This document shows, piece by piece, positions 4,447 to 42,925 of a stretch of 42,925 nt of DNA. The stretch's first letter is position 1; each line of letters opens with the position of its first letter. The notes under the pieces are model-generated. The model made no database searches. It saw only the letters and a program-made list of their open reading frames with translations, and was not told the DNA's origin. Location of the stretch: IMG/VR virus record IMGVR_UViG_3300028844_007301, positions 1 through 42,925 of that record, one strand, 5' to 3'. The DNA comes from a virus. A program made the translations under genes and the position numbers.

Positions 4447-4530
4447 ATCAGTTCCTTTAACTTGAATTATTTTAAAAGGTAAACCACGAAAAAAATAAAT
4501 TAAAAATAATTAATTTTATTAATTTAGAAA

Positions 4531-4538
4531 TATTTATC
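4531..4538 (-). promoter_or_regulatory. Late promoter for the sheath gene
   Basis: On the minus strand this is GATAAATA, a NATAAATA-type late octamer. It lies in the very AT-rich 104-bp gap between terminase and sheath, 84 bp upstream of the sheath ATG. It would give a high-copy sheath-tube message separate from the terminase message. Confidence 0.55.
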
Positions 4539-4550
4539 AATTTTGAAGTT

Positions 4551-10252: not shown

Positions 10253-10260
10253 TATAAATA
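10253..10260 (+). promoter_or_regulatory. Late promoter for the giant fibre gene
   Basis: TATAAATA, an exact match to the T4 late promoter octamer. It lies in the 87-bp gap between gp16 and the giant gene, 45 bp before its ATG. The rest of the gap shows no other clear signal. Confidence 0.75.
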
Positions 10261-19300: not shown

Positions 19301-22300
19301 CTGCTGATCAATTAACATCAAATTATGCTACCATTAATGATGCGACAATTGATAAAGCAACTATTACTGATGCCACAGCAGAAAGATTAACTTCCAATAA
19401 CGCTACCTTAAATGATGTTACTATTGAAGAAGGCACTGCAACTGATTTGTTGCTCAACAATGCAACACTTGAAGCCGCAACTGCAAATAATCTAGTCCTC
19501 ACTGGTCCCACAACAATTAGTGGTCATTTATTACCAACTGCAAATGGTGTGTATGATTTAGGTTCTATTGAGAATCCATTCAGACATATGTTCTTGTCTG
19601 GCAGCACACTCTATGTTGGCGGTGTACCAATTACAATGGGTGGTGACGGCTTTAAGTTTGGTGCTGACCTTGCTGATTATTCAAAGTCAAGCGAACAAGC
19701 AGCACATATTCAAACTGAAACCGCACAGATTAATACATTAACTGCAAATACAGGTACGGTCACAATTCTCAGTGGTGAAACATTAACCTATACAGGACTT
19801 AGCACACTCACTGAAATTGATTCAGAAACTGCAGAAATTACTGACTTAACAGTTGGACAAATTGAAGGTAATTATGCCAATGTTGATACCTTAGTTGTTA
19901 CTACAGATACAACTTTAGATGGTACTACAACAATTGGTAATGCTGATATTCAAATTGGTGATGTTGATACACTGACTGCAAGAAAACTAACTGTTACTGA
20001 AGATGCAACAGTTGCCAATTCCGTCACAATTGACGGCTTCACCATGTGGAAAGATGGTGAAGGTCATTTGAAGTTAAGTAACCGTCTTGCTGATTACTAC
20101 CTCAAGACAGATGATACAACCGGTGAACTTGTACGGACAAATCGACTTATTGCTAACAATGCCTTTATTGATGTTCTTGATGCAAATACTGGTTCAGTTG
20201 ATGAACTTGATTCAGTTGATTTAAAGGTAGCTAATTCAATCACATTGAATAACTTTGGAATGGCAATCGATGAAAATGGCCATCTGAAGTTTACACATCG
20301 TCTAGCAGATTATTATCTCAAGACTGATGATACTAGTGGTGAGAAAGTTACTACAAATAATCTGTTTGCACAGAACACATTCGTTAACTTTATTGATGCC
20401 AATACTGCTGAGATTGATGAGCTTGAAGTAGTTAATATTCATGCAACAAATGATGTATCTGCTGCCAATTCCGTTTCAGTTAACGGCTTCACAATGTGGA
20501 GAGATGGTGATGGTTATTTGAAGTTAAGTGATCGTTTAGCAGACTACTATTTGAAAACTGATGATACAACCGGTGAACTTGTACGGACAAATCGACTTAT
20601 TGCTAACAATGCCTTTATTGATGTCATTGATGCAAACAGTGGTACAATTGATGTATTAACAGTTGAAAACATCACAGTCAAAGATGGTACAATTGATGAT
20701 GTGACCTTTAACAATGTCAATGTTAATGGTGGTACAGTTGAATTTATAAACCTGAAGAATTCAACTTTAGTTGATGTTGAAGGTAATCTAAATGAACCAG
20801 ACATTGCTGATCCTGTAATTACTGGTGGTACTTGGACTGATGCAACAACAACGAATACAACACTTGACGGACAGATTGTATTTAATGCTCCATTACTTGC
20901 TGGTACAGATATTGACTTAGGTACAAATACTCAGCGATTCCGTGACCTATATCTTGCAAATGCAATCTCTGTACAAAACGCAACACATGGTGCGTATATC
21001 AGCCTTGATGCAAATGGTCATATCAAGTTCAATGTAAGACTGGCAGATTATTATCTCAAAACAGATGATACCAGTTCAGAGAAAGTTGAGAGTACACTAG
21101 GTATCTTTGAAACTGCAAATGCAGATACAGTTAATGCAACCACAGTCAATGTTGATGACCTATTTGCTGATGAAGCAGATGTCAATATTCTTGCTGCAAC
21201 AAATGCAATTATCACAAGTGGAACAATTACAACACTTGGTACAACTGATATTACCTCAACAGATATCAAAACAAATGATATTCTTGTTACTAATGGTGTC
21301 TTTGTTGGTGGTGAAACAAAAGCCGACTCCGCACTAATTACAGTTGATGAGAATGGACATATTAAGTTCAATGTTCGATTGGCAGATTATTATCTCAAGA
21401 CAGATGATACGAGTGGTGAAAAGGTCACTACTTCAAATCTGTATGCTGGTAATACATTCACTGATGTCATTGATGCAAACACTGGTACAATTGATCAATT
21501 GGAAGGTACAGACCTTGATTATGATAATGCAGTTATTGATACTGCAAACGTCACAAGATCAACGATTACCACTTTACATTCAACTACTGGTACAATTACT
21601 AATATTGATGGTACTACTGCTGACTATACTCAAGGTAAGTTTGGTTCACTTGATGTTACTGGTATCGCAGACATCAATACTATTCAGGCAACTGATGGAA
21701 CAATCACAACTGTCAATGGTACAACAGCAAACTATCTGAATGTAAATGCTACTGAAGAATTGTTTGCAGCAAACGCAACCATTCTTGCTGGTGGTATTTC
21801 AAATGTTCGAATTGACAATGCAGACATTTATAATTCACGAATCTATGAAACTCAAATTACAACAAACTCAACTGCTGAGAATTTAGTTTCAAATACTGCC
21901 ACACTACATGATGCCACTGCATACAACTTAACAAGTGAAAATGCAACCATTAATAATGCTGTAACAAACAACCTGACTTCAAATAATGCAACTCTTGAGA
22001 ATGCAACCATTAAGAAGTCGGTGATTGAAAATTCAGAAATTCGTGTATCAAAGATTATTGAATCAGAGATTGTACAAGAATCAACTGCTGATCAATTAAC
22101 ATCAAATTATGCAACCATTAATGATGCGACAATTGAACGTGCAACAATCAATGATACAACTGCTAATCGAATTACTTCAAACAATGCCACACTCAATGTT
22201 GTTACAATTAAAGGTGGTACAACTGACGGATTACAAAGCACAAATGAAACTCTGACTGATGTCAAAACAATCAATCTAACAACAGAAGGTACGTTTGTTC

Positions 22301-25300
22301 CATCTGTTGATGATACACAAGATATTGGTTCAACTACAGAAAGATATCATGATGCTTATCTATCAAATGAGTTGAACATTGATGGCGTGCGAATGCGAAT
22401 TGTCAGTGGCGAAATTGACTTTGTTGATACTGATGGCAATAATGTAAAACTTGCAGACTATAACATGGCATCTGAAACTGGTGCAACCATCACCAGTAAC
22501 GAAGCAAACTTGAACTTGATTGTTAACAATGAACTAACCGCAAACATTGCTGATGTTGTAGTGCTTGAAGCAGAAGATGCTACCATTGATGAACTCATGA
22601 TTACGACACAATTCACCTCGCCAGAGAATCAATTAGTTAATGCAACAGTCACTGGTACAGCAACAATCAATGATGAAGTTGTTACCACTTCTACTGTAGG
22701 TACTGCAGACATCACAACACTGACGGCAACGAATGTTACCATCACAACTGAAACAGTTGGTACATCAAACATCACAACCGCACAAGTTGATCAACTTGAT
22801 GCAAACACTGCCGTTCTGATTGACCTTGAAGGTACAACTGGTCGCTATGATACTTTCACTGCTGGTGTATTGACGGCAACAACTGCAACAGTCACCGATA
22901 GTTTCACATCATCATTGAATACAACACTTCTTGGTGACACAACAATTGCAGATGCAACAATCACTGAAGAAACTGTCACAACATCAACAATCACCGATGC
23001 AACAGTTACCAACACCTTAACTGTAAATCGTTCATTTACTGCCACAGCAAATGTTACGGATCTATTTGTTGAAAATAATATCGAAGCGCCAAGCGGAGCA
23101 ATTAAAACTCTTGGTGTTCAAAATGGACAAATTGATAATCTAACAGCAACAAACGTTCAATTTGCAAGAAAGATTAGTCTTGAAACTGTCGACATTTCAT
23201 TGAACAATGATAATCAAATTGTCTTCAGCGCAAATGTTGACCATCTGAATGTTACCAATTTAACAACAACTGATGAGCTAACAGTTCATAACACTCTTGT
23301 TGCTTCAGACATCGCAGAGTTTGTAGGTCAAACAACAATGAATGATGTTGCAATCAATGGAACATTCACTGCAAATACGATTGATGTTACGACTTCAGCA
23401 TTGCTTGAGAACGCAACTGTTACGGATACACTGACTGCAATGAATACTGTCCGGTTTGGACAAGCAATTTCATTGAACTCTGCAATCATGTCAGTTGATG
23501 CAAATGGTGAAATCAAGTTTAATGTTCCTCTTGCAGATTATGCAAAAGAACATGGTGAAGGATTCCATGCTGGAGATTTGGAAGGTGATGTCTTCCGTGC
23601 AAACACTGCAACAATTGTTGATGCAGAAATTGAGAATCTAACAACAAACAACACAACGCTGAACTTTGCAACTATCAACGGTGGCGTCATCACAGGATCA
23701 GTCCTGAATGGTGTAACACTTGCTGGTGGTGCTGGTATGATTGATGGCTTTGAGTATTTCAATTCTGTGATGGCAAACACTGTCGCATCGAATACTCATA
23801 TGACAGAAGGTACCATCGATGATTTCGAAATGACGAATTCATTGATTCTTGATTCAACAATGAATGATTCTTCTGCGAACAATCTAACAATCACTTATAG
23901 TGAACTCAAAGAATCACTGCTTGAAAATGTAAGAATCACAGGACATTTAATTCCAACTGCAAATGTCACTTATGATTTAGGTACACCAGATTTGAGATTT
24001 AGAGATTTATATCTCAGTGGATCAACAATCAACATTGGTAGTGCTGCAATCTCAATGAATGAAGAAGAGGGTACACTTGAAACAGACAAGTTCCGTGTTG
24101 AAGATCAAGTTGCAAACAGTTCAACATTAAATTACCTTGACAGTTATCAGGCAACAATCAATCAATTAACTGTCAACAACTTCGTCACCAATGATTCAAC
24201 AACATTGAACATTGCACAAATCAACAAGCTGCAAAGTACATCTGTTGATTTGACTGAAGTACAAGTCAATGAGCTTGATGCAAACACTGCACGATTGATT
24301 GATGCAAACATTGGTACAGCACAAGTTAATGCTCTGAACGCAAACACTGTTGACTTACTTGACGGTACAATTCGAAGCATTGAAATATATGATTCTTATT
24401 CTGACAACTTGCTGGCAGAAAATAGTACACTTGAAAGAGGTACTATTGAAGATATGACCATCGGTAATACAACTGTCAAGTTCATCACAGGTACAGATGT
24501 TGACTTGACAAGAGGTACGATTGATGATTATACAATCAAGAATTCTCAGATACAGGATACAACTGCAACTAATCTTGATATTTCTGGCAGTGAATTTACA
24601 AATGTTGAAATCTACGATGGTTATTCAAACAATCTAACCGCAGAGAATTCAACATTAGTTACTGGTTCAATTCATCGTTTTAATATCACTGATACAACTG
24701 CACAAAGAATCACTGGTACAGATTTCAATCTAACAAATGGTTCTCTTGACAACTTTGATATTCGAAACTCAAGAGTTTACGATACACAAATTGTTGAAGA
24801 AACAAGTGCAAACTATTTGGTATCAAACAATGCCACATTGCATGTTGCCACAATTCATGATAGCACAACATACAATGCTGTCATACACAATGCCGAGGCA
24901 TATAATTTAACATCAAATAATGCCACATTGAATCAAGCAACAATTCTTGATTCAACAATTCGAAATGCACAGATTTATAATTCAACAATTCATGAATCTC
25001 AAATTGTTAGTGAATCACATGCTGATGAATTAACATCAAATAATGCCACATTGCATGTTGCCACAATCTATGATAGTACAACTCATCGAGCTACAATTCA
25101 TGATGCACATGCAAACAACTTGACTTCTGATCATGCAACATTAGAAGATGCTTCACTCGCCAACTCATTCATCACAACTTCAACCTTAGATGGTGTAATT
25201 CTCAAGAATTCATCAATGCAAGGAATGTCTGTTGATTGGGTAACCATTGGACATGCATCAATTGATGATTCATGGGCAAACACAATGGAGATCCGTGAGA

Positions 25301-28300
25301 GTTTCTTTGAGAACAATGATTTTGAAGATTCAAGAACAGCCAATTCAACAATCAAACTTTCAACAATCAATGATTCAGTAGTCAATGATTCGGATGCACA
25401 TCGCTTGAAAGTTTATGACAGTGACCTATTTGATATTCGTGTGACAAATGGTACATTTACAATTGTCAATACAGAAGATTTAACTGCAAATGATGTGACA
25501 TTGACAAACGGTACTTTAGATCGTTTCACAACAACCAATGTTGATTTAACAACTGGTACAATTGATGATTATAATATCATCAATTCAAGAATCTATGATA
25601 CACATGCAAATAATTTAATCGTTGATGTAACAACAATTAAAGATGCAACAATCACTGATGCTAATATTGCTACTGCGGATGTTGATACACTTTATGTTGA
25701 TACAACATTTGGTCAAATTGGAACAATTCTGAATCTAACATCGAATTTTGTTTCAACAACTGATGCATTAATTACGAGTGCAGATATTACTGGAGCAAAT
25801 GTTAATACTGCAAATATTGATTTTGCAACTGTTGATTATGCAAACATTATTGATACAGATATTACAGAAGCTGAAGTTGAACTACTTACTGTAAATAATG
25901 CATTCATTACAACAGGTAGCTCAACCTGGCATGATATTGTGAACTTAGATGCACTCAATGGAACAATAAGAGATTTAACAGTCAATCAAACGGCGACAAT
26001 TACAAAAGAAATTGTTACCGAATCAGATATCAATACTGGTAAAATTGTTAATGCCACATTGACAACTGCGGATATTGGTGATGCAGAAATTGCCAATACT
26101 GAAATTGGTTATGCAAATGTTGGTAAATTAGTTGTTGCTCAAACAGAAATGCAAGATGTTGTTGCTGAAACACTTACCGCAAATCGTCTTGACATTAATG
26201 TTTCATCTTATTTGAAGCAAGCAGAAATTAATACATTGACCTCAACAACAATGTCTGCTTCAAATAAAGTTTTGGCACCTACAATTAAAGCAACTTTACT
26301 TGCCGATCTATTTGAAGCAGAGATTGAAAAAGAAACTGTTACCGAATCCTGGATTACAACGGCACATATTACAACTGGTTATGTTGATGATTTACATTTT
26401 ACATCCGCAAGTCCAGATGTCCTTACAGCAAATACAATTCATGTAAAAGATCTGGCAAGTGCAAATGCAGTTCTATCAACTGCTACAATCACCAACTCAG
26501 GATTTAGTGATGGCTTGATTCAGAACACCGAAATTCGTTTCTCTGATTTCAAGTATGGTGAAATTGTTGATTCAAATATCACAGGTGGCACAGCAAACGG
26601 ACTCAATCTTACCACATCTGTTCTGGATGATATCACTGTTCTTTCTGGTAATATTTTCAATGTTGTCATTGATGGTGCAATCATTAAGGAAGCAGTATTT
26701 GATGGAGGTATGGGACAAATTCGCAACTATGAGATCTATGATTCATATGCGAATTCATTTGTCATGGATGATTCAATTCTCAACCGACCAATTCTGAATG
26801 CTCCTGTCATCAATGGTGCGCAACTTCAAGGTGCCTTCGGTAGATTTGTTGATTTCGAATTCTGGGAATCAAAAGCAAACAATCTATTCCTGCGTGATTC
26901 AACAGTCAATACATCATTGATTGAAGATTCAACCGCAGAGAATTTGACAATTGCAAACAGTACAATCACATCGACTTCAACGATCAATGGTGCATCACTG
27001 AACGATGTGTTAATTGAGAAAGCTACCGCAAATGATGTTCAGCTTTCTAATGCTACAATTTCTGATTCAACGTTTGAAGATATTGTTCTGAATAATGTAA
27101 GAATTACCGGTTTTTTAATTAATGATGCTGTGACATCAAGTGGCGGTGAATTGTCTAGTGGTGACGGTTCTGCCAACTCTGGCAACGCAGGATTCTTAGA
27201 TGGTGAATACTTTGGTGAGGGTGGACTTCTGCTTGGAATTCGCTTGCATGATGCGACCGCAAATGACCTAATAGTCAACACCGGTACGATGCATGATGTG
27301 TTGATGCAGAATTCAACCATTCGTGATTCTGTTGCAAACAATATGACCTTCAACTCTGGTACATTGTATGATTTTGACATCTACAATTCCAGAATTCATG
27401 AGACACAAATTGTTCAAGATTCAACTGCTGAAAACTTGATTTCAAACAATGCAATCTTGAAGAATGCAACTGCCGAAAGTTTGACCAGTGCAAATGCAAC
27501 CATCACCACTGCAACGATCACAAATGCAATTGCGACCAATCTACAATCAACGAATGCAACAATCAGTTCAGCAACCATTCTGAATTCAACTGCAAACAAT
27601 CTGTCATCTGCAAACGCAACATTGACAGATGCCGATATTGTAGATTCTGCAGCAAACAATTTATTTGTTGAAAATTCAACAATCATGTTGTCAACACTTG
27701 ATACTGTTCAAATTAATGGTTCAAGTGCAAACAATTTAACTGTCAACAATTCATTCATTACAAACACTTCAATTGTTGATAGTACTGCTGAAAGATTGAA
27801 TAGCAACAATAGTGTAGTTGCTAATTCGACAATTACGAATTCATCACTTGAACAAGTAGCAATCACGAATTCAGACTTTACTGGAAACATTCTGACTGGA
27901 TCACAAATCAATGGCACTACAATCATTGGTGGTTCGGCACAAGGTGTTGCAATTTCTGGATCAACTGCTACGAATCTAAGTGCAGCACAATCAATTCTTA
28001 CGAATTCACAGATTCGAAATTCAACTGCAAATAATCTGACATCAAATGATGGTACATTCAATCGTCCATTTGTTGATTCAGCCACAGTTGAAAATGCAAC
28101 CGTTGCGAATTCAACATTCACAAACATCACGATTACAGATAGTAATCTTGGTACACTATCACTTGAAGGTTCAACTGCCAATGATTTGTCAGTCACTTTA
28201 TCTTCAATTGAAACAAGTGCTATTGCCAATTCAACAATTACAAATACATCTCTTGAGCAAGTTGTTGCTGCAAATTCAGAATTTAAATTAACTACAATTC

Positions 28301-30246
28301 GCAATTCTGAAATCTATGATACTTATGCAAATAACTTTGTTCTTGATAATTCAATTCTGAATGGCGCAATTCTAAATGGTGTGTTCATCAATGGTGTTGT
28401 TCTTTCTGGAAACGGACACTCAGAAGCATCAATCAGTGAATTTGATATTTGGAATTCAAACCTCATCAATGTAACACTCACTGGTGGTACACTTGATAAC
28501 GTAACATTGACAAACACAAGTGTAGATATTGATCGCCTTGTTGGTACAGAAGTTAATACATGCACAATTGTTGATTCATCAGCAAACAATATCACTGTTG
28601 CAAATAGCCATGTTGCTAATTCAACAATGAAAGATGTATCAGTTGAGAATCTAACAATTTATGGTACACTAACAAATCGTGCAACATACATTGATGGTTC
28701 ATTCCTGAATAGTGATATTCAAGATGGTAATGCAAATAGTTTGACAATCAATGCGTCATCGTTCATCAATGGTACATTGTTCAATAGTGTTGCTAACAGC
28801 ATGACCTTGCATGATGGTGCATTACATAACTTTGACATTTATAATTCACGCATTCATGAAACACAAATTGTCAATGATTCACAAGCAGAAAATCTTGTAT
28901 CAAACAATGCAATTCTAAATTATGCAACAGCAACAAATCTACAATCGAACTATGCCACAATCACCAATGCGGCAATCAATAGTGGATATGCTGAAGACTT
29001 AACAGTTGAAAGATTGACCGCAAATAGTGTTGACCTTGATAATGCAGAACTTGATCAAGTTCAATTGTCAAATGCCACACTACGGATAATTACTGCAAAC
29101 AATGTAGTGATGAATGATGTTGCAATTGATGATGCTAATATTAGCAATACAACAATGCAAGATATTACTGCTGACCGAGTTGTCACAAGTAATACAACAT
29201 TGTTCACAAGTACATTCAATGCTGGTACAATTCTTGGTTCAACAATCAATGCTGCAACTTTAAACAACGCAACAATCAATAGTGCCACTGTTAAAAATGT
29301 AAACATTGATCGTGCGAATGTATCTGTTGCCGAATTGCTCAGTGGTAATATTGCAAATGTTTCGATTATCACAAGCTTTGCTCAAAGATTTGATATTACA
29401 GATGGTACATTTGAAGGTGAGATTTCAAACACTTCAATCTTCGATAGTGAACTATTCAATGTAGATGCTGATGGATTTACAGCAAACAATTTTGCTCTCA
29501 CAAACGGCACAATTGATACTGTTACAGCAAACAATGTAATTGCAAATAATGTTGTCGCTACCAACGTTGAACTCACTGGCGGTACATTAAACAACTTCAA
29601 ACTGAATGAGATTGAAGCAAACAATATCTATCTTGCAAATTCAACATTTGACCATTCAACATTAAATCATGTTGAGATGGAAGGTGTCTATGCAAATAGT
29701 GTTGTAATGGATAATGCAATTTTGAACAGTGCATATTTGAATGGTGCAATTATTAATGGTGTTGTATTAACTGGCGATGGTAATTCAGTAATTTCTGAAT
29801 TTGAAATTTGGAATACAACAGCAAATAATCTAACAATTACCGAATCTGAATATAGTGGTAATGTTGTTCAGTCAATTATTGATGATTCAACTGTACAGAA
29901 TTCAACTGTTGCAAATACAACACTTACAAATGTTACCTTCTCAAGTGGTACAATTACTGGTGATGTAGTATTTGATAATGTAGACTTTGATATTGGTACG
30001 CTTGACAATACTACATTGAACAATTCAACATTGAATACAGCAACCATTCACAATGGAACAATTGAAGGATTGCTGGCAAATACTGTTGAAATGAATGTAG
30101 TCAAGATTACTGATTTAACTTCAAATAATTCAACATTAAATACTGCAACAATAAATAACGGTACGCTAAATAACGCTACAATAAATAATTCGGCTATAAA
30201 TAATTGTATACTTAACGATTCAGTAATTGATTGTGGAACATTCTAA
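10306..30246 (+). CDS. Giant pentapeptide-repeat fibre protein, 6646 residues
   Basis: A single open frame of 19.9 kb. Residues 1 to about 330 form a globular tail-fibre-type N-terminus (YSSNRLFIGHPDG; SHTQLATAQATKEYVDQ; LRVHRGGIGRSHL). Residues about 360-690 are simple beta-solenoid (VNGKSTVNGDTIVNGKSTIN). Residues about 695-795 are a single-copy domain common in marine phage fibres (DLFVQGNTVQIDVQTMVVED, then DAYAGIFRDAADKKFHLF). The rest is overwhelmingly pentapeptide repeat of type [AST]x[LIFV]xx, predicted to fold as a square right-handed beta-helix. Between residues about 2800 and 4600 it is interrupted by modules such as DLGTNTQRFRDLYLANAISV and DANGHIKFNVRLADYYLKTD. The last 2050 residues are almost pure repeat. 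The protein ends inside a repeat, with no separate C-terminal domain. It is Asn/Thr/Asp-rich; the only Cys I noticed are near the C-terminus. Probably a virion fibre or whisker; the exact attachment site is unknown. Confidence 0.85.
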   Translation: MADTISKILIKSSLVTDTPSASDLERAELAYSYSSNRLFIGHPDGNQSPMVIGGTKFLELFETILDDDGTINSGQVLSNRVIVAGEDRDLDFLDIGVLKVAGRELATRFIDKVTTSNAFSDVSHTQLATAQATKEYVDQRTERFLLNFDEESIQEAQILIADANNRFENRTITGDVILSSDGFTKIRDGIIKNEMLKNASILVGTQEVKLGGRIIINMNEDTSGILRVHRGGIGRSHLEKHQVVLGNELEAVQTSSNFIFDTIENKLYINERAEITRHLSIGESLEVADSFFATADSIRFHDYFKVDHTDKSVNIDADNLSIDADIDLTSNLIVAHTNTFDLFAKSTNLYGDSLYISANTVTVSKAHTTFDGEVIVNGKSTVNGDTIVNGKSTINGDSTINGDVQVNSDNVNISSSTVTVVDGVVTFNNDVDYNGDTITVSSGTVTTVYGDVDIQNQLISFNTLQYEVDGTRIDFNSIDFEISNGTHTTIQGDSTINGKTNFTGDILIESNNVEYSLGTLTKFVGPAIFNNDISIVNDLISIDANEFEVSSNTRSVFNGITIFNNVSQLNGELFEISPFTETIYKGTVEFQNLTTFNADSTFNEGIYVNSNLYLSADTNLSSDATSQFRGETTFDNKVSINDELTVTAPSVFNNIVEINDATTINAPTVINDITTINDATTINAPLRVNDNVSIRESLTIEKDLIVERDLFVQGNTVQIDVQTMVVEDNIIVVGKNNEADAVDLGFAAKYKYEGVDAYAGIFRDAADKKFHLFRKYDAEPGITMGNYELATLVGDFEANQVLIESGTISDVTMHRPEIHKATLIDAKLEGTVIHNLSATAASIDHSTANDVYIKNSVLQYSDVKHSELDTITSVNFTGTDTYLTDGWVKNFDIYDSRANNFTATNVYITTGTIDDFDVDDIRVTNFDLKHGDIFNVDIDNVRANNLTATNVYLFDGTQYNFEIEKTISKNFTGTDTFLTKGTIEDFELTDIRVQDFDLKNGKIWNVEIEKISSANDVTVTNFDLKHGDIQDVDVEDMRANNVVSTNTHSTFGHIETFTANNITTTNFDSRQGYLQDIDVEDMRANDVVATNLNLDHVVANDVTTTNFDSRHGYLQDIDVVDMRAEEVKAKFVELDQVTANGVTTTNYKSYHGYLEDTDVEDMRANGVVATNLDLDHVVANDVTTTNFDSRHGYLQDIDVEDIRANNVVSTNVHSTFGHLETYTQNNITTTNFDSRQGYLQDIDVEDMRANNVVSTNTHSTFGHLEDFTANNITITNFKLQYGTIEDYSIEDVRANNVNTTNFVTAHGDLTDIDVEDMRANAVISTNVHSTFGHLETYTANNITTTNYKSYYGYLENTDVEDMRANNVVSTNTHSTFGHLETFTANGITTTNYKSYHGYLEDTDAIDLRATNVALDTGTITNFDATHIRVTNDLKATNVTLDTGTLTNFDIYNSRVYETQIVDRSTANNLESNNATLTFAEIYDTRSERLWSNNATLENAVIKRAEIENIEGINYSLTAGDITNFEIYDSRANNFTATNVYLTTGTFDDFTMRDSRTERITANATTGTNFDLTTGTIDNFLVKNSTFEAIVANNVNGTNYVLDTVIADKVFLNTGTIDLFDIVDSRTYNITANNTTGEYFFLTHGTLEDFTIEKSRMNNSVANNMEINDSTINNATLWNANLAGITITGAVTTQSKFDDSTANNVVINQSTLQNSYIKDTNFDRVEGYDLTATNVFLYDGTLENFDIEASRANNLTATNVYLTTGTITDFDVDDIRVEASTANNLTATNVYLTTGTITDFDVDDIRVEKAEANNVTATNVYLMTGTIEDFDAENIRANNVTATNVFLTTGTIDQFTGTHLHITDDFKATNVVLDTGTLTNFDIYNSRVYDTQIVEESSANNLVSNNATLTYAEIFDTRSERLWSNNATLENAIIKRAEIENIEGKNYSLTDGDLTNFDIYDSRANNLTATNVYLETGTIEDFDVTNIRVEASTANNLTATNVYLTTGTIEDFDVTNIRVEASTANNLTATNVYLETGTIDNFTGTHLHITDDLQATNVTMDTGSMVNFDIEASRANNLTATNVFLTDGTIDNFDLEASRANNLTATNVYLETGTIDNFDLEASRANNFTATNVYLETGTIDNFKGTHLHITNDLKATNVTLDTGTITNFDIYNSRVYDTQIVEESSANNLVSNNATLNYATSEYLTSNNATITNAKIKNAEIENIEGINYDLKAGDIDDFDIENSRIANSTLNLVTGTNVDLDGGLIENYEINDSFGNNVTLNFSTLNDAQLNRPTLDHATLTGVTIAGAVATESKFDNSTANTVVINDSEIYTTLIENSNVENITGNNVYLTGGTLDNFKIYRSTIYDSQIVQNSEAEYLTSNNAQLNDATILNATAENLTSNNATITYAQAHYLTSNNATLHRADIFDTEGIRVDLTTGTIDDYDIIDSRMDRMQANNVALNKGSMADYDIDGSRLRQVTGNNVDLTIGTIDDYTIKQSNIEDTSGVRVNLTTGIIDQYTIKDSDLNNVNGTSVDLTTGTIDDYTIQNSDLDTINGVRVDLTTGKIEHYAIANSNLNLVTGTNVDLTSGEIKTYHIEGSTANNLTATNVYLQTGTADDIDITNSTLDSVEGTRVDLTTGKIEQYAIANTSLNLVTGTNVDLTSGEIKTYHIEGSTANNLTATNVYLTTGTLDTFDGVRVDLTTGEIEQYAIANSSLNLVTGTNVNLTTGIIDDYTIKQSDIEDIDGVRVDLTTGTITTYHVEGSTANNLTATNVYLTTGTAGDFTVSSSKIVDTTVDGTFVPADDSVDLGANASRFQDAYISNELNLGLAVMRINEDGHIDFVNQAGENVRLADYAMKEDAATAVVTETAIVGSTFSGNVVANTITVHAGSIANVEIRNADIYGSRVYETQLINEITANNVFSDNAEIEDALVTRATILNATANNLTSNNATIRNADITDATALRFTANSSSFGQVEIWDSKIYTSQIIESQIIQESTADQLTSNYATINDATIDKATITDATAERLTSNNATLNDVTIEEGTATDLLLNNATLEAATANNLVLTGPTTISGHLLPTANGVYDLGSIENPFRHMFLSGSTLYVGGVPITMGGDGFKFGADLADYSKSSEQAAHIQTETAQINTLTANTGTVTILSGETLTYTGLSTLTEIDSETAEITDLTVGQIEGNYANVDTLVVTTDTTLDGTTTIGNADIQIGDVDTLTARKLTVTEDATVANSVTIDGFTMWKDGEGHLKLSNRLADYYLKTDDTTGELVRTNRLIANNAFIDVLDANTGSVDELDSVDLKVANSITLNNFGMAIDENGHLKFTHRLADYYLKTDDTSGEKVTTNNLFAQNTFVNFIDANTAEIDELEVVNIHATNDVSAANSVSVNGFTMWRDGDGYLKLSDRLADYYLKTDDTTGELVRTNRLIANNAFIDVIDANSGTIDVLTVENITVKDGTIDDVTFNNVNVNGGTVEFINLKNSTLVDVEGNLNEPDIADPVITGGTWTDATTTNTTLDGQIVFNAPLLAGTDIDLGTNTQRFRDLYLANAISVQNATHGAYISLDANGHIKFNVRLADYYLKTDDTSSEKVESTLGIFETANADTVNATTVNVDDLFADEADVNILAATNAIITSGTITTLGTTDITSTDIKTNDILVTNGVFVGGETKADSALITVDENGHIKFNVRLADYYLKTDDTSGEKVTTSNLYAGNTFTDVIDANTGTIDQLEGTDLDYDNAVIDTANVTRSTITTLHSTTGTITNIDGTTADYTQGKFGSLDVTGIADINTIQATDGTITTVNGTTANYLNVNATEELFAANATILAGGISNVRIDNADIYNSRIYETQITTNSTAENLVSNTATLHDATAYNLTSENATINNAVTNNLTSNNATLENATIKKSVIENSEIRVSKIIESEIVQESTADQLTSNYATINDATIERATINDTTANRITSNNATLNVVTIKGGTTDGLQSTNETLTDVKTINLTTEGTFVPSVDDTQDIGSTTERYHDAYLSNELNIDGVRMRIVSGEIDFVDTDGNNVKLADYNMASETGATITSNEANLNLIVNNELTANIADVVVLEAEDATIDELMITTQFTSPENQLVNATVTGTATINDEVVTTSTVGTADITTLTATNVTITTETVGTSNITTAQVDQLDANTAVLIDLEGTTGRYDTFTAGVLTATTATVTDSFTSSLNTTLLGDTTIADATITEETVTTSTITDATVTNTLTVNRSFTATANVTDLFVENNIEAPSGAIKTLGVQNGQIDNLTATNVQFARKISLETVDISLNNDNQIVFSANVDHLNVTNLTTTDELTVHNTLVASDIAEFVGQTTMNDVAINGTFTANTIDVTTSALLENATVTDTLTAMNTVRFGQAISLNSAIMSVDANGEIKFNVPLADYAKEHGEGFHAGDLEGDVFRANTATIVDAEIENLTTNNTTLNFATINGGVITGSVLNGVTLAGGAGMIDGFEYFNSVMANTVASNTHMTEGTIDDFEMTNSLILDSTMNDSSANNLTITYSELKESLLENVRITGHLIPTANVTYDLGTPDLRFRDLYLSGSTINIGSAAISMNEEEGTLETDKFRVEDQVANSSTLNYLDSYQATINQLTVNNFVTNDSTTLNIAQINKLQSTSVDLTEVQVNELDANTARLIDANIGTAQVNALNANTVDLLDGTIRSIEIYDSYSDNLLAENSTLERGTIEDMTIGNTTVKFITGTDVDLTRGTIDDYTIKNSQIQDTTATNLDISGSEFTNVEIYDGYSNNLTAENSTLVTGSIHRFNITDTTAQRITGTDFNLTNGSLDNFDIRNSRVYDTQIVEETSANYLVSNNATLHVATIHDSTTYNAVIHNAEAYNLTSNNATLNQATILDSTIRNAQIYNSTIHESQIVSESHADELTSNNATLHVATIYDSTTHRATIHDAHANNLTSDHATLEDASLANSFITTSTLDGVILKNSSMQGMSVDWVTIGHASIDDSWANTMEIRESFFENNDFEDSRTANSTIKLSTINDSVVNDSDAHRLKVYDSDLFDIRVTNGTFTIVNTEDLTANDVTLTNGTLDRFTTTNVDLTTGTIDDYNIINSRIYDTHANNLIVDVTTIKDATITDANIATADVDTLYVDTTFGQIGTILNLTSNFVSTTDALITSADITGANVNTANIDFATVDYANIIDTDITEAEVELLTVNNAFITTGSSTWHDIVNLDALNGTIRDLTVNQTATITKEIVTESDINTGKIVNATLTTADIGDAEIANTEIGYANVGKLVVAQTEMQDVVAETLTANRLDINVSSYLKQAEINTLTSTTMSASNKVLAPTIKATLLADLFEAEIEKETVTESWITTAHITTGYVDDLHFTSASPDVLTANTIHVKDLASANAVLSTATITNSGFSDGLIQNTEIRFSDFKYGEIVDSNITGGTANGLNLTTSVLDDITVLSGNIFNVVIDGAIIKEAVFDGGMGQIRNYEIYDSYANSFVMDDSILNRPILNAPVINGAQLQGAFGRFVDFEFWESKANNLFLRDSTVNTSLIEDSTAENLTIANSTITSTSTINGASLNDVLIEKATANDVQLSNATISDSTFEDIVLNNVRITGFLINDAVTSSGGELSSGDGSANSGNAGFLDGEYFGEGGLLLGIRLHDATANDLIVNTGTMHDVLMQNSTIRDSVANNMTFNSGTLYDFDIYNSRIHETQIVQDSTAENLISNNAILKNATAESLTSANATITTATITNAIATNLQSTNATISSATILNSTANNLSSANATLTDADIVDSAANNLFVENSTIMLSTLDTVQINGSSANNLTVNNSFITNTSIVDSTAERLNSNNSVVANSTITNSSLEQVAITNSDFTGNILTGSQINGTTIIGGSAQGVAISGSTATNLSAAQSILTNSQIRNSTANNLTSNDGTFNRPFVDSATVENATVANSTFTNITITDSNLGTLSLEGSTANDLSVTLSSIETSAIANSTITNTSLEQVVAANSEFKLTTIRNSEIYDTYANNFVLDNSILNGAILNGVFINGVVLSGNGHSEASISEFDIWNSNLINVTLTGGTLDNVTLTNTSVDIDRLVGTEVNTCTIVDSSANNITVANSHVANSTMKDVSVENLTIYGTLTNRATYIDGSFLNSDIQDGNANSLTINASSFINGTLFNSVANSMTLHDGALHNFDIYNSRIHETQIVNDSQAENLVSNNAILNYATATNLQSNYATITNAAINSGYAEDLTVERLTANSVDLDNAELDQVQLSNATLRIITANNVVMNDVAIDDANISNTTMQDITADRVVTSNTTLFTSTFNAGTILGSTINAATLNNATINSATVKNVNIDRANVSVAELLSGNIANVSIITSFAQRFDITDGTFEGEISNTSIFDSELFNVDADGFTANNFALTNGTIDTVTANNVIANNVVATNVELTGGTLNNFKLNEIEANNIYLANSTFDHSTLNHVEMEGVYANSVVMDNAILNSAYLNGAIINGVVLTGDGNSVISEFEIWNTTANNLTITESEYSGNVVQSIIDDSTVQNSTVANTTLTNVTFSSGTITGDVVFDNVDFDIGTLDNTTLNNSTLNTATIHNGTIEGLLANTVEMNVVKITDLTSNNSTLNTATINNGTLNNATINNSAINNCILNDSVIDCGTF
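14596..17020 (+). repeat. Three copies of a ~280-bp module in the giant gene
   Basis: A block starting KATNV-LDTGT-TNFDIYNSRVY and running through RSERLWSNNATLENA and IENIEGINY occurs at about 14596-14880 and 15890-16180, and in altered form at about 16755-17020. Order and wording of successive pentapeptides are conserved across the copies, so these are segmental duplications rather than generic repeats. Confidence 0.75.
16192..16430 (+). repeat. 90-bp (30-residue) tandem units in the giant gene
   Basis: Successive units of six pentapeptides (ANNLTATNVYL, TGTIEDFDVTNIRVEAST) repeat every 90 bp with few nucleotide changes. A second pair of near-identical 90-bp units lies at about 15547-15730. 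The high DNA identity points to recent unequal crossing over or slippage. Confidence 0.75.
20110..20624 (+). repeat. 65-bp exact direct repeat in the giant gene
   Basis: The 65 bases at 20110-20174 recur exactly at 20560-20624, 450 bp downstream. They lie within a module encoding RLADYYLKTDDTTGELVRTN that appears in related form five times between about 20030 and 21430. Confidence 0.85.
30150..30202 (+). promoter_or_regulatory. Cluster of three late-promoter octamers inside the end of the giant gene
   Basis: AATAAATA at 30150-30157, AATAAATA at 30180-30187 and a perfect TATAAATA at 30195-30202. The last lies 44 bp upstream of the acetyltransferase ATG, the same spacing as the other late promoters here. 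The coding sequence switches to ATA for Ile in exactly this stretch, while ATT and ATC dominate in the rest of the gene. This is probably the promoter of the 30246-36421 operon. Confidence 0.65.
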
Positions 30247-36421: not shown

Positions 36422-37059
36422 TTCAAGTCAAAACTTTTCGCAATTGCATAGGCAATTTTCTTACCACCAGACCGTGATGGTTCAATAGGTGATACTTCAC
36501 TGTAATCAGATTCTTGATCACAAATCGTCCTCAAGTCAATCACAGGCAAATCTCTTTTAGCAGCCTCTTCAGTAATCACATCATTAAAGAGTGCTAAAGC
36601 GGTCATCGCCTCAATCGGAAGATATCCTGATTTGTGAGTTGGAATCTTATTATAAATCGTACAGACACGAATGTTATATTCATTATAATAAGTGGTCACC
36701 GTATCAAGAACATTCGTGTAAAAACCACGAAATTCTTCAGTTATTGATCGAAGCAATGTCAGTGCTTCGTGAACATTGGAAACGGGCGCCATCAAGATTC
36801 CAGCAACTCCCAGAGCATCATTACCACCAACACTCAGAACAGCGGCAGCATTGTTTGAATAAGGTTGTGATCGTTCTTCTGTCAATTGACGAACAACATC
36901 ATGCGTGACATATCCATCAACAGCATCAAGAGCAACATTGACTCCTTTGTCAGCAACTATACTGGCAAGTAAAGAAGAAACGGCATCATACTTAGTTTCA
37001 ACATACTTGCTGTTATCGAAAATTGAATCTCCAAGCAAATGAATAGTTTCGATTGTCAT
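36418..37059 (-). CDS. SGNH/GDSL-type hydrolase
   Basis: 213 residues. Block I is LLGDSIFDNSKY (8-19) with nucleophile Ser12. Block III is SVGGNDALG (76-84) with the oxyanion Asn80. Near the C-terminus, SEVSPIEPSRSGGKKIA (187-203) sits where classic members have the catalytic DxxH. This SPIEPSxxGGxKIA form, with Glu in place of His, is seen in a subgroup of GDSL proteins, so activity is likely but the base is non-canonical. There is no signal peptide, so it is cytosolic or virion-borne. Family members hydrolyse ester bonds in lipids, or acetyl groups in polysaccharides. The ATG at 37059 lacks a strong ribosome site (TGAGA only) and lies downstream of the structured RNA locus and its terminator-like stem. 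The stop overlaps the tape measure stop on the other strand. Confidence 0.8.
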   Translation of the reverse strand: MTIETIHLLGDSIFDNSKYVETKYDAVSSLLASIVADKGVNVALDAVDGYVTHDVVRQLTEERSQPYSNNAAAVLSVGGNDALGVAGILMAPVSNVHEALTLLRSITEEFRGFYTNVLDTVTTYYNEYNIRVCTIYNKIPTHKSGYLPIEAMTALALFNDVITEEAAKRDLPVIDLRTICDQESDYSEVSPIEPSRSGGKKIAYAIAKSFDLN

Positions 37060-37100
37060 TATATTCTCACAAGAGGTTTAAAGGAACGGTGAATAAAAAT

Positions 37101-37229
37101 GAAAAAAGCCGCAAGTTCTCATCATCACCTCACATGCTGGTCCCGCATTTTCTAACGACCAGCAATTGGTCGTGCGAGGATGTTTGGTATCAACGAACTT
37201 ACGGCTCTTTTCTATCGGATACCAGCATG
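37101..37229 (-). ncRNA. Candidate structured RNA: small RNA or attenuator leader upstream of the SGNH gene
   Basis: The gap 37060-37271 holds no clear gene but a dense set of inverted repeats. Read on the minus strand, transcription from the promoter at 37235-37262 should begin near 37228. An 11-bp stem (37195-37205 with 37108-37118, one G-U pair) is followed at once by six U residues, an intrinsic terminator. Inside its loop are a 7-bp hairpin (37155-37161 with 37167-37173) and a 7-bp pair (37128-37134 with 37173-37179, one wobble). A perfect 9-bp pair joins the RNA's 5' end (37221-37229) to 37133-37141. It crosses the terminator stem, so the two folds are mutually exclusive or form a pseudoknot. 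The result is either a ~128-nt terminated RNA or a regulated leader. Confidence 0.6.
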
Positions 37230-37234
37230 ATCAG

Positions 37235-37262
37235 ATCATATCACACTGGTCAAAAAAGTCAA
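37235..37262 (-). promoter_or_regulatory. Sigma70-like promoter (P1) for the structured RNA/SGNH unit
   Basis: On the minus strand: TTGACT (37257-37262), 16-bp spacer, TATGAT (37235-37240), with an A-tract upstream. The spacer end and the 8 bases after the -10 (CTGATCAT) are shared with the second promoter at 39457-39484. Confidence 0.75.
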
Positions 37263-37271
37263 GTACTTTTT

Positions 37272-38324
37272 TTATAAATTTCCTTTAACGCCATCAATGA
37301 AATAGTTCATGGTAAGAAGTTCTGTATCAGAAGGAACAGCACCTTTCTCAACAACAAGTTTACCATCTCTGTCATAAATCGGTCCGGTAAATACTTGATA
37401 TCGTCCAGTCACAATTTCTTGCTTCTTTTTATTTACAATTTCTTGAACTTTTGGATCTACCATCTTGCCAAATTTTGACAAGTCAACAATTCCTGTATTC
37501 ATTCCCCACCACTCACTGTCAGAAGTCCACTTATCATCTTGTACTCGCCTTACCAATTCAACATAGTAGCGTCCCCAGTTGAAGATTGGTGCGGTTAGAT
37601 GTGCTTTTGGTCCATAGAGTGTCATGTCTGAATCATTACCAATGGCGTACAAGCCTCTTTTATTAGCTGCTTGTGTTGCTGCGGCAGAATCGGTTGTAAT
37701 ATGAACAACATCTGCACCATTGTCCATCAAAGTATTTGCTGCAGCACCTTCTTTCGCAGGATCAAACCAAGAGTTTACCCAGATAACATTTACTGTTGCA
37801 TCAGGATTTACTGAACGAGCGCCAAGAGTGAAGGCATTGATGTGTCGTACAATCTCAGGAATTGGATGAGAACCGATAACTCCAATTTCATCGGTCTTTG
37901 TTTGCATACCGGCAACCATTCCAGCAAGATATTTTGCTTGATACATTCTTGCAAAGTAATTGCCCATATTGTCTGCTGTTTTGAAACCGCTACAATGCAT
38001 GAAAATTACATCAGGAAATTGCTTTGCAACTTCAAGAGTTGGATCCATGAAACCAAAGCTTGTTGTGAAGATCACATTGTATCCTCTTCGTGCAAGATTT
38101 CTTAGCACTCTTTGAGAATCAGTTTCAGGCACACTTTCAACATAAGTAGTTTCAATGCCAAGTTTTTCGAGTTCACGCCTTCCAAGGTCATGAGCATAAG
38201 TCCATCCACCATCACCAACCGGACCTACATAAACAAAGGCTGCTTTAACTTCTTTAGCATATGTGGTGTTTGAAAAGGCGAAAAGGGAAAGAATCAGTGA
38301 GAAGGTCAACAAAAGTTTTTTCAT
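37272..38324 (-). CDS. BMP-family (PnrA/BmpA-like) ABC-transporter solute-binding protein, secreted
   Basis: 350 residues. Residues 1-23 are a standard Sec signal peptide (MKKLLLTFSLILSLFAFSNT), cleaved after TYA by signal peptidase I. There is no lipobox Cys, so it is a free periplasmic protein. The mature part follows the BMP family throughout: AAFVYVGPVGDGGWTYAHDL, VIFTTSFGFMDPTLEVAKQF, MHCSGFKTADNMGNYFARMY, YLAGMVAGMQTKTDEIGVIG, NAFTLGARSVNPDATVNVIW, NSWFDPAKEG and AIGNDSDMTLYGP. Characterised members (PnrA, BmpA types) bind purine nucleosides for an ABC importer. No permease or ATPase gene is present, so it would have to work with a host transporter. GGAG lies before the ATG. It probably derives from a bacterial host and acts as an auxiliary metabolic gene; ligand identity is not readable here. 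Confidence 0.9.
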   Translation of the reverse strand: MKKLLLTFSLILSLFAFSNTTYAKEVKAAFVYVGPVGDGGWTYAHDLGRRELEKLGIETTYVESVPETDSQRVLRNLARRGYNVIFTTSFGFMDPTLEVAKQFPDVIFMHCSGFKTADNMGNYFARMYQAKYLAGMVAGMQTKTDEIGVIGSHPIPEIVRHINAFTLGARSVNPDATVNVIWVNSWFDPAKEGAAANTLMDNGADVVHITTDSAAATQAANKRGLYAIGNDSDMTLYGPKAHLTAPIFNWGRYYVELVRRVQDDKWTSDSEWWGMNTGIVDLSKFGKMVDPKVQEIVNKKKQEIVTGRYQVFTGPIYDRDGKLVVEKGAVPSDTELLTMNYFIDGVKGNL

Positions 38325-39492: not shown

Positions 39493-40110
39493 TTAATTTT
39501 TTTTATCGAATGGATTTGGTATAATCATATAGTCTTCGTCAACAACTAAAATTTTATCTTTATGCCACCTTGAATTAAGATGCAGAATTTCAGTCTCTTT
39601 GATATAAATATAATAGTTCGCTTCTTTCCAAATTTTTAGGGCGCCAAGTGTTTCCATTAAAGTTACAGCACGTTGACTAATAGGAGAATAACGGAATCCA
39701 TTTTCATCAGATATTCTTTTGAAAGTTGCATTATCTTCACATTCCTCTTCAGTGATCAAAGGAGACTTTGAAAAATCATTTTCAACTTGTTTATTTTTCC
39801 ATCTCCATTCTAAAAATAAATCATAAAATTTATCAAATTTTTCGGAAAAAACAGAATCCTCCCAGTCGATTCGTTCACCTTTATCAAGTATACCATAGAC
39901 GATAGCGTCTTTTATTTTCCATCCATCATCAAATTTTCTAGTGAAATACCATCTTTCACGTTCATTTTTGCACCATTCTGTGCTTTCTCTTTTATTATTT
40001 CTTCTTTGTCTATTCTCTATAATTTCGTTTCTCCTAGACTTTTCCACCTCTGCTTGAAACTTGGTAATGAGCAGAGCATTAGGATTTTCTTTTTGAGTTG
40101 TAATTGTCAT
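39493..40110 (-). CDS. Hypothetical mosaic protein, 205 residues
   Basis: Not recognised as a known family. It is charged and helical. Residues 10-22 (NALLITKFQAEVE) match the segment DALLITRFNEEVE in the partial gene at the right window edge. The end (DKILVVDEDYMIIPNPFDKK) matches the C-terminus of the 76-residue protein at 38642-38872. Between them is a unique region: ERWYFTRKFDDGWKIKDAIV, GERIDWEDSVFSEKF, and ALKIWKEANYYIYIKETE. The ATG is followed by ACAATT, a start context repeated in several neighbours, and AGAGAAG precedes it. It appears to be assembled from modules shared with its neighbours. Confidence 0.7.
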   Translation of the reverse strand: MTITTQKENPNALLITKFQAEVEKSRRNEIIENRQRRNNKRESTEWCKNERERWYFTRKFDDGWKIKDAIVYGILDKGERIDWEDSVFSEKFDKFYDLFLEWRWKNKQVENDFSKSPLITEEECEDNATFKRISDENGFRYSPISQRAVTLMETLGALKIWKEANYYIYIKETEILHLNSRWHKDKILVVDEDYMIIPNPFDKKN

Positions 40111-41489: not shown

Positions 41490-41906
41490 TTATTTCAAAA
41501 GTTCTCGCAACTCCATCAATAATATACCAAGATTATTCAGGCCTTTGCCTTTACAAACACCCCAAAACCGATCATTCCAATTATTTCCCTCAATTAATTC
41601 TACATCACCAGTAGCAATTAGTTTATCTTTAAGTTCGGGGTTTAAAGTAAATTTACTTTTTAAAACATCTCTCATCACATTAATCTTCACAGTTTCCCAA
41701 TCTTCTCTCAACTCTACTTTTCTTCCCTTTCTTTTTGCTTGACCAGCAGAAAGATTAAAAAAGTCTTCTCTCACTTTCATATCTAAACATTTTGCTGCTT
41801 GAAATGCCGCCTCACTATTTAAAAATGTTTGTCCTTCAAATTCAACAGGACAAGAATAAAAGTTTGAAAGAAAATCGTATTCACCACGAAAACTATCAAT
41901 TGTCAT
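41490..41906 (-). CDS. NADAR-family (YbiA-like) ADP-ribosylglycohydrolase
   Basis: 138 residues. The family pattern is complete: FRGEYDFLSNFYSCPVEFEG, LNSEAAFQAAKC, FFNLSAGQAKRKGRKVELRE, DWETVKINVMRDVLKSKF, a TGDVELIEGN segment, DRFWGVCKGKGLNNLGILLM and LRELL at the end. Members (YbiA, DUF1768) cleave N-glycosidic bonds. Some remove ADP-ribose from guanine in DNA and neutralise DarT1-type toxins. A phage copy could therefore undo host ADP-ribosylation of phage DNA, or act in NAD or riboflavin-intermediate metabolism. AAGGA precedes the ATG. It shares a start region (ATGACAATTGATA) with the next gene upstream. Confidence 0.88.
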   Translation of the reverse strand: MTIDSFRGEYDFLSNFYSCPVEFEGQTFLNSEAAFQAAKCLDMKVREDFFNLSAGQAKRKGRKVELREDWETVKINVMRDVLKSKFTLNPELKDKLIATGDVELIEGNNWNDRFWGVCKGKGLNNLGILLMELRELLK

Positions 41907-41927
41907 AACAATCCTTAATAAGGTTTA

Positions 41928-42275
41928 TCAATCGTAAAAAACCATTTCGGCGTTACATAGATAAGCGCCAAGATTATAAGTATCAAAAATATCTTTGATT
42001 GTCCATTCAGTATCTTCATTAGCAATCATATTGATACCTTTGATTACTCTTCGGTAAATATGATATTCACCATCTTTTTCAATAAATTCGTAGCCAATGC
42101 ATTCATACTTTGAAGGAGGAATTAATGTAGTGTCTTTCAAGCTTTCAACAACCACTTCAATAGGAAGGTCTGGTGAATAGCCCTCACCTTCTGTTTGCTT
42201 GGTTGCCTCTTGTATAATAGGCAACTTACGAAGTTGCCCTTCAAGAAGTTGCTCATGAAAATTATCAATTGTCAT
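41928..42275 (-). CDS. Hypothetical protein, 115 residues; tandem paralogue A
   Basis: Not recognised. It is clearly homologous to the neighbouring gene at 42293-42667: both contain VVVESLK, then CIGYEF(I/M)EKDGEYHIYR, RVIKGIN, and WTIK-IFD-YN-GA near the C-terminus. AAGGA lies upstream of the ATG. The product appears to be a small alpha/beta protein without membrane segments. Its first 19 bases match the start of the NADAR gene, pointing to recombination at start codons or a favoured initiation context. Confidence 0.75.
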   Translation of the reverse strand: MTIDNFHEQLLEGQLRKLPIIQEATKQTEGEGYSPDLPIEVVVESLKDTTLIPPSKYECIGYEFIEKDGEYHIYRRVIKGINMIANEDTEWTIKDIFDTYNLGAYLCNAEMVFYD

Positions 42276-42292
42276 TTGAGTCCTTAAAGGAG

Positions 42293-42667
42293 TTATTCAT
42301 AATAAACAATTATGTCTCTATATAAAGTAGCGCCAATATTATAATTATCGAAAATACCTTTGATTGTCCATCCAATATCTTCAAGGTCAAACTGATTAAT
42401 ACCTTTGATTACTCTTCGGTAAATATGGTATTCACCATCTTTTTCCATAAATTCATAGCCAATGCATTTATGATTTAAAGGAGGAAACAATGAGGGAACT
42501 TTCAAGCTTTCAACAACCACCGTAATAGGAAAGTCTGGTGGACATTCGTTATTTTTTGCTGTGCGCTTGTTTGCCTCTTGTATAAATGGTATTTTTTCTA
42601 ATTGAAATTTAAGCCATTTATCACGATGAATATCTTGCCGCTGTTTGAGAGTTGAAGCAAGTGTCAT
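42293..42667 (-). CDS. Hypothetical protein, 124 residues; tandem paralogue B
   Basis: Not recognised. It is the paralogue of the 115-residue protein downstream, sharing long blocks (GYEFMEKDGEYHIYRRVIKG; VVVESLK; a C-terminal aromatic strand ending VYYE versus VFYD). The N-terminus differs (MTLASTLKQRQDIHRDKWLK), with a basic helix. The ATG overlaps neither neighbour but lies 1 bp after the stop of the partial gene at the window edge. A tandem duplication followed by divergence is the simplest history. Confidence 0.75.
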   Translation of the reverse strand: MTLASTLKQRQDIHRDKWLKFQLEKIPFIQEANKRTAKNNECPPDFPITVVVESLKVPSLFPPLNHKCIGYEFMEKDGEYHIYRRVIKGINQFDLEDIGWTIKGIFDNYNIGATLYRDIIVYYE

Positions 42668-42668
42668 A

Positions 42669-42925
42669 TTAATGGCTCAGTGAGATAATTGCGGCCTCGA
42701 CTTCTGCAAAGATTGCCTTGCCAGCAGAAATGTAGGGATTGATGCCGTTGTTGTAGCAGATGCAATCAGCATCGTCAAGGGTTTCATCGTAACCCTGTGC
42801 TTGCAACATCCAGCGGATGGCGGTGAAGCGGTCGGTAGCACCTTGATGAATGAAGGTTTCAACTTCTTCGTTGAAGCGGGTGATAAGCAGAGCATCAGTT
42901 TTCTGCTCATGCTCAATGGCATCTT
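42669..42925 (-). CDS. Hypothetical protein, C-terminal 84 residues (N-terminus beyond window)
   Basis: The frame is open from the window edge to TAA at 42669-42671 and reads DAIEHEQKTDALLITRFNEE, then FIHQGATDRFTAIRWMLQAQ, GYDETLDDADCICYNNGINP and AGKAIFAEVEAAIISLSH. This frame is favoured over an overlapping one that encodes a Ser/Pro/Thr-rich shadow. Its composition is normal and its ALLITRFNEEVE segment also occurs in the 205-residue protein at 39493-40110. It is noticeably more G+C-rich than the paralogue genes that follow it. Function unknown. Confidence 0.7.
   Translation of the reverse strand, partial: DAIEHEQKTDALLITRFNEEVETFIHQGATDRFTAIRWMLQAQGYDETLDDADCICYNNGINPYISAGKAIFAEVEAAIISLSH

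Follow-up and report, generated by a model that had tools for sequence, protein, structure and literature searches.

PeSL (promoter-early stem-loop) cassettes are said to have been described in T4-like phages by Arbiol in 2010 and by Comeau in 2014. According to PMC4503421, such a cassette joins a terminator-like stem-loop to a strong early promoter and lies in a plastic region of the T4-type genome. Phage-encoded small RNAs are the subject of a review (PMC12197685, in excerpt), and a scan of pelagic and cyanobacterial myophages for riboswitches found none, according to the excerpt of PMC7029224.

Here we describe a predicted structured RNA in the virus record IMGVR_UViG_3300028844_007301, that of a marine T4-like virus, which was analysed as a window (the whole stretch of DNA under analysis) of 42,925 bases. 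The element is real and probably functions as a leader within a cassette built on a repeated promoter. Only a single virus population was found to carry it, and the switch function proposed for it in a preliminary description is unproven.

Genomic setting and the repeated promoter

The unit under study lies on the minus strand of the window, between the gene for a Bmp/PnrA-like substrate-binding protein upstream (38324-37272, minus strand, 350 aa; PF02608, 8.8e-64) and the gene for an SGNH/GDSL hydrolase downstream (37059-36418, minus strand, 213 aa; PF13472, 5e-09). A T4-type tail sheath is encoded in the window (best phage matches, 30-37% identical), and the SGNH protein had no match in the phage records. 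The Bmp/PnrA-like gene is a nutrient-binding gene carried by a phage; among cellular genomes, its nearest relatives (the best 7 of 80 loci, 63-71% identity) are in MAGs that carry the label Deltaproteobacteria or SAR324, hinting at a SAR324 host for the phage. In four viral relatives of the Bmp gene (L006-L009, 70-83% identity), other genes follow Bmp, and both the RNA and the SGNH gene are absent.

One viral contig, IMGVR_UViG_3300021957_000063 (hereafter G001), is 99.8% identical to the window over 16026-39504 and diverges beyond. The split is abrupt at 39504 of the window (13521 in L031), about 20 nt upstream of a promoter copy, and past this point the gene order is shuffled, with window 41494-42925 matching G001 3798-6133 in pieces. 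Elsewhere in the window, 10306-30246 is one open frame of 6646 aa with internal repeats, ahead of which, at 10253, lies TATAAATA, which we take to be T4-late-like. A NADAR-domain protein (PF08719, 1.4e-25) is encoded at 41490-41906 among small early-region genes, and the adjoining small genes at 42293-42667 and 41928-42275 look like diverged tandem copies of one another. A tRNA in the window was looked for and dropped as a candidate.

The promoter of the unit, recognized by its repeats and a motif scan, is a 35-bp element (37262-37228, minus strand) with a -35 of TTGACT (37262-37257), a TG (37243-37242), a -10 of TATGAT (37240-37235), a conserved CTGATCAT, and a predicted +1 at A37228. Its layout, in which TTGACT and TATGAT are separated by 16 nt with TG before the -10 (extended -10, sigma70-type; 37262-37235, minus strand), was among the 10-of-12 matches of a sigma70 scan; as the scan of 9.9 kb gave 29 matches versus a shuffle mean of 27.6, such a match says little by itself. 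An A-rich, UP-element-like stretch lies directly upstream of the -35 (37276-37263, minus strand). The motif scan also matched TATAAAAA (37276-37269, minus strand) at 7 of 8 positions to what we take to be the T4 late box consensus, a likeness that is probably due to chance.

The strength of the promoter assignment comes from repetition. The 35-bp string TTGACnTTTnnnnCCAGTnTGATAnGATCTGATCA occurs in two exact copies in the window, the second at 39484-39450 (minus strand), whereas none is expected in shuffles. When the RNA was used as the query, 10 further promoter-region matches were obtained in G001, whose first 18 kb hold 11 promoter copies, and pattern scans of viral contigs returned 14 and 39 stretches. 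After merging, at least 61 distinct copies were obtained in related viral contigs, 59 of the 61 sharing the 35-bp spacing. A copy in this count has at most two substitutions (at most one in TTGAC) and 120 nt following it, and copies differing by at most three bases over the promoter plus 100 nt were merged; a looser list of 73 rows, with up to three substitutions, takes in duplicates in two spacings and two loci without a -35. Because the loci were fetched by core patterns, conservation of the core is itself circular. In a non-circular check, in which the search pattern held no -35, 43 of 46 distinct exact -10/+1 core matches had TTGAC at the proper distance, and an A-rich stretch stood above it in 36 of those 43. 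The exact second copy, the 61 distinct copies, and the recurrence of TTGAC bear out the strong sigma70-like promoter of the preliminary description. The copies are a true promoter family, shared by related phages of marine and estuarine origin and read by a host-type polymerase, and the sigma70 type suggests that these promoters are early.

The structured RNA and its alternative folds

From the predicted start, a structured leader RNA of about 128 nt (37228-37101, minus strand) would be formed if the transcript ends at the U-tract. The MFE was -48.8 kcal/mol for 37228 to 37097, and the fold of 37229-37095 had a z of -5.3, with none of 200 shuffles as stable, in agreement with the earlier claim of about 128 nt of nested complementarity. 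The fold is closed by a terminator-type stem, the 5' arm of which (nt 17-34, 37212-37195, minus strand) pairs with the 3' arm (nt 111-128, 37118-37101, minus strand) at a pair probability near 1 and runs into U6 (37107-37102). A stem followed by six U residues had been reported; both are present, but the stem has 18 bp, two G-U pairs counted, and not 11 bp. Among helices with a span up to 140 and at least 4 G-C, counted over both strands of the window, it is the longest; with U6, it lies 42 nt before the SGNH ATG. Its interior of 76 nt is unlike that of ordinary short-loop terminators, and the stem was not listed by a standard terminator scan.

Inside the stem, a central hairpin, ACGACCA-AUUGC-UGGUCGU (nt 56-62 with 68-74; 37173-37155, minus strand), is the alternative to an 8-bp pairing of UGCUGGUC (nt 65-72) with GACCAGCA (nt 87-94), that is, 37164-37157 with 37142-37135. 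Nearly every base of the 3' half of the RNA is paired in the MFE fold. Only short frames were found in the RNA, which confirms that it holds no convincing protein; a 74-aa frame with a TTG start on the plus strand (37053-37277) is antisense to the whole unit. A possible mini-ORF of 14 codons after GAGGUGAUG (37122-37078, minus strand), at the start of which a ribosome would cover the stem's 3' arm, is weak, and comparable mini-ORFs were present in 69 of 1000 shuffles.

A perfect 9-nt pairing at the 5' end had been set against the terminator stem, the two being taken as mutually exclusive folds. The pairing is present (37229-37221 with 37141-37133) and comprises 8 pairs in the transcript if the start is A37228. 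In the folding, its 5' strand is nt 1-8 (37228-37221, minus strand; 9 bp with 37229) and its 3' strand is nt 88-95 (37141-37134, minus strand), where the inner alternative pairing described above also falls. Perfect helices of at least 8, 9, and 11 pairs occurred in 67, 13, and none of 1000 shuffles, respectively, and a perfect helix starting at nt 1-2 in none of 1000, the latter being a post hoc test. Mutual exclusion holds for nested folds only; the two helices cross in the manner of a pseudoknot and share no nucleotide, so that both could form together. When the 5' pairing was forced, the nested fold had -34.0 versus -48.8 kcal/mol, the stem being ahead by 14.8 kcal/mol, and the ensemble probability of the 5' pairing was about 1e-11 in a pseudoknot-free model. 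The proposed logic, in which the 5' pairing works against the terminator, is not supported, since the crossing helices have no base in common and the terminator is ahead by about 15 kcal/mol.

In prefix folds, hairpin A, in which nt 5-11 (37224-37218) pair with nt 38-44 (37191-37185) together with inner pairs (37224-37185, minus strand), appears before the 3' arm of the stem is made, and it is a direct rival for the 5' arm. With the 3' arm left unpaired, the best fold includes hairpin A and has -32.2 kcal/mol, about 17 kcal/mol above the MFE. In these models, the true competitor of the stem would be hairpin A, not the 5' pairing. Since the terminated form is predicted to prevail at equilibrium, switching would depend on kinetics or on the action of a ligand, protein, or ribosome. 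A riboswitch or another known RNA family was rejected because nothing in the window reached the Rfam gathering scores; in the region there were four weak matches, all far below the threshold. What stands of the attenuator or riboswitch reading is a promoter-driven structured RNA with a terminator-like stem upstream of the SGNH gene, without the switch logic and without a riboswitch family.

Leader position, relatives, and possible function

Most promoter copies are followed by a start codon with SD after 20-60 nt. In the target, this distance is 168 nt, the longest among the 60 copies given a start; the next longest, 118 nt, belongs to L041, in which a tRNA-Tyr lies between promoter and gene. 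There (5721-5856), a promoter copy with two changes stands directly ahead of the tRNA-Tyr gene with a gap of 16 nt. A stem of at least 7 pairs was found within the first 40 nt of 9 of the 61 leaders (shuffle mean 0.85, maximum 2 in 40 rounds), and a terminator-like hairpin within the first 60 nt of 4 of the 61 (shuffle mean 0.125, maximum 1 in 40 rounds). As these counts exceed those in shuffles, structured leaders recur in the promoter family, and the target is the extreme case. Short terminator-like hairpins between promoter and gene were seen at L003 3424, L040 4115, L043 7059, and L003 1189.

The SGNH gene has an SD leader, AACCTC-TTGT-GAGA-ATATA (37078-37060, minus strand), of the type that follows this promoter family. 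The motif in its loose form, AACC..GAGA, was present in 17 of the 61 promoter-linked leaders, target counted, and a second count gave 6 of 28 promoter-linked ORFs versus 6 of 164 other ORFs; two of the latter six are the SGNH gene itself (in the window and in G001), and a third stands behind a degenerate promoter copy. Because the SGNH leader keeps this motif, the RNA looks as if inserted between promoter and SD leader, which suggests that the gene may once have stood directly behind such a promoter and that the RNA was set in between later. No separate promoter was listed between 37101 and 37059 in the promoter scan. In G001 (L031, about 2100), another gene has a terminator-like hairpin and the same SD motif ahead of it with no family promoter in view, so that the target spot is not the only one with a gene behind a terminator. 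A transposon-like insertion was rejected, as no flanking duplication was seen by eye.

The only other copy of the RNA that was found is identical and lies in G001; no diverged homologue was found across pattern, BLAST, and nhmmer searches. The stem pattern retrieved one stretch, the identical copy. A looser stem pattern retrieved five, and the four inspected had neither the fold nor the family promoter; a 5'-helix pattern retrieved three, of which the two besides the identical copy lie in an open frame. With blastn against phage records, one 19-nt match was obtained, and BLAST and nhmmer against the collected loci gave best other E values of 0.02 and 0.2. The best E was 0.15 in eight genomes with the nearest Bmp genes. 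Among 41 genomes of the SAR324-containing order, one 25-nt match (E 0.003 for one genome) was obtained with no like RNA around it and was judged to be chance. An RNA anti-CRISPR of the solitary-repeat kind was also rejected: the core hairpin CGACCANNTGCTGGTCGTTAGAAA, which presumably resembles I-F CRISPR repeats, had 0 matches in the genome contigs in an exact-pattern test.

The most economical reading, to which we give an even chance, is that the RNA is the 5' leader of an early-promoter cassette with fixed (unregulated) attenuation. A strong host-polymerase promoter, one of many near-identical phage copies, would start a transcript at about 37228, and its first 128 nt would fold into a structure closed by the 18-bp stem that ends in the U-tract. 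For most polymerases, transcription would probably end near 37101 and yield a stable early RNA of about 128 nt; a minority would read through into the gene for the SGNH hydrolase, the SD leader of which starts directly behind the stem and the expression of which would be low. An attenuating leader is the most likely role because the SGNH gene has retained the SD leader that characterizes the promoter cassettes. The 76-nt interior, the stem's absence from the standard scan, and the failure of the searches above to find a diverged homologue count against this reading, as do the looseness of the SD motif and its presence in only 17 of 61 leaders. The earlier suggestion that the SGNH gene is regulated by the RNA gains from this motif and from the four family leaders with terminator-like hairpins, but not as a switch based on the 5' pairing.

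It is possible, though on the unlikely side, that the RNA is a stand-alone phage small RNA acting in trans on host or phage messages, with the SGNH gene downstream by accident and expressed otherwise. Promoter, structure, and U-tract would make up a complete unit, the tRNA-Tyr behind the promoter copy of L041 indicates that RNA genes can occupy the slot, and an independent RNA with an unrelated gene start behind it would resemble an attenuating leader. However, the SGNH gene has a cassette-type SD leader, the 3' half of the RNA is almost fully paired, and the 41 genomes of the SAR324-containing order held no homologue save the match judged to be chance.

Regulation of the attenuation, by a riboswitch, a leader peptide, or a protein-bound leader, is doubtful. 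Readthrough would then be set by hairpin A, by the crossing helix, or by a ribosome at the mini-ORF GAGGUGAUGAUG, and it speaks for such a device that three helix sets compete for the same bases, that hairpin A precedes the stem in prefix folds, and that the mini-ORF start abuts the 3' arm. Against this, the best fold lacking the stem is about 17 kcal/mol less favourable (-32.2 versus -48.8), mini-ORFs of this kind arise in shuffles at the frequency given above, and Rfam gave no match. A wider proposal, which we likewise regard as improbable, is that the promoter-to-gene slot in uncultured marine T4-like phages is a site for swappable RNA modules (hairpins, terminators, tRNA, and the 128-nt pseudoknot-capable RNA) that set cassette output, the target RNA being a new class of phage leader switch.

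It is quite unlikely that the RNA serves the SGNH message as a stabilising or processing 5' structure (exonuclease block or RNase III site) with no termination: the excess of stems in the first 40 nt of family leaders would fit, but a pure stabiliser has no need of the U6 that directly follows the long stem, and the other hairpins are mostly without a U-tract. A DNA-level recombination cassette, in which inverted repeats and promoter serve as gene-shuffling sites and the RNA fold is secondary, is hardly credible, for although ends of shared blocks lie within 40 nt of promoter copies in 56 of 203 cases on the query side (8.9 expected) and in 41 of 203 on both sides, and a promoter copy (39504) marks the point where the 99.8% identical relative departs from the window, this evidence bears on the promoter rather than on the RNA, which has identical flanks in the only relative, and BLAST ends fall at conserved promoters partly by construction in contigs picked for holding the promoter.

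If fixed attenuation is right, genes under near-identical strong promoters would be tuned by leader content and not by promoter strength. As a single RNA without homologues, the target is of modest interest on its own; with the promoter family, a defined 35-bp tag becomes available for recognizing early units of uncultured marine T4-like phages, together with leader hairpins amenable to reporter assay.

Comparison with known systems

The predicted RNA resembles the phage-encoded small RNAs covered in the excerpt of PMC12197685 in being promoter-driven, terminator-ended, and about 100-150 nt long, and differs from those covered there in occupying a gene-leader position. With bacterial attenuators and terminator-type riboswitches, it shares a terminator-like stem in a gene leader and an alternative upstream hairpin; it differs in having no known aptamer, a far larger stem interior, and a strong bias to the terminated fold. 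As to an antiterminator that shares bases with the terminator, hairpin A overlaps the 5' arm of the stem but is about 17 kcal/mol less favourable, and the 5' helix shares no base with the stem.

By analogy, the closest known kind appears to be the PeSL promoter-terminator cassettes of T4-like phages. As in these, a strong, probably early promoter is present in many copies (61 distinct), and at the target it is combined with a terminator-like stem-loop in a plastic region of a T4-type genome. The ends of shared blocks between related contigs are enriched at the promoters, though partly by construction. In contrast to PeSL, the stem here lies after the promoter and closes a 128-nt RNA with a long interior, and terminator-like stems are rare in the family, being found in 2 of 61 copies in the 150 nt upstream (shuffle mean 1.1) and in 4 of 61 in the 60 nt downstream. 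Since most promoter copies are without a terminator-like stem on either side, we do not file the locus as a PeSL cassette, but regard it as one that may work like it.
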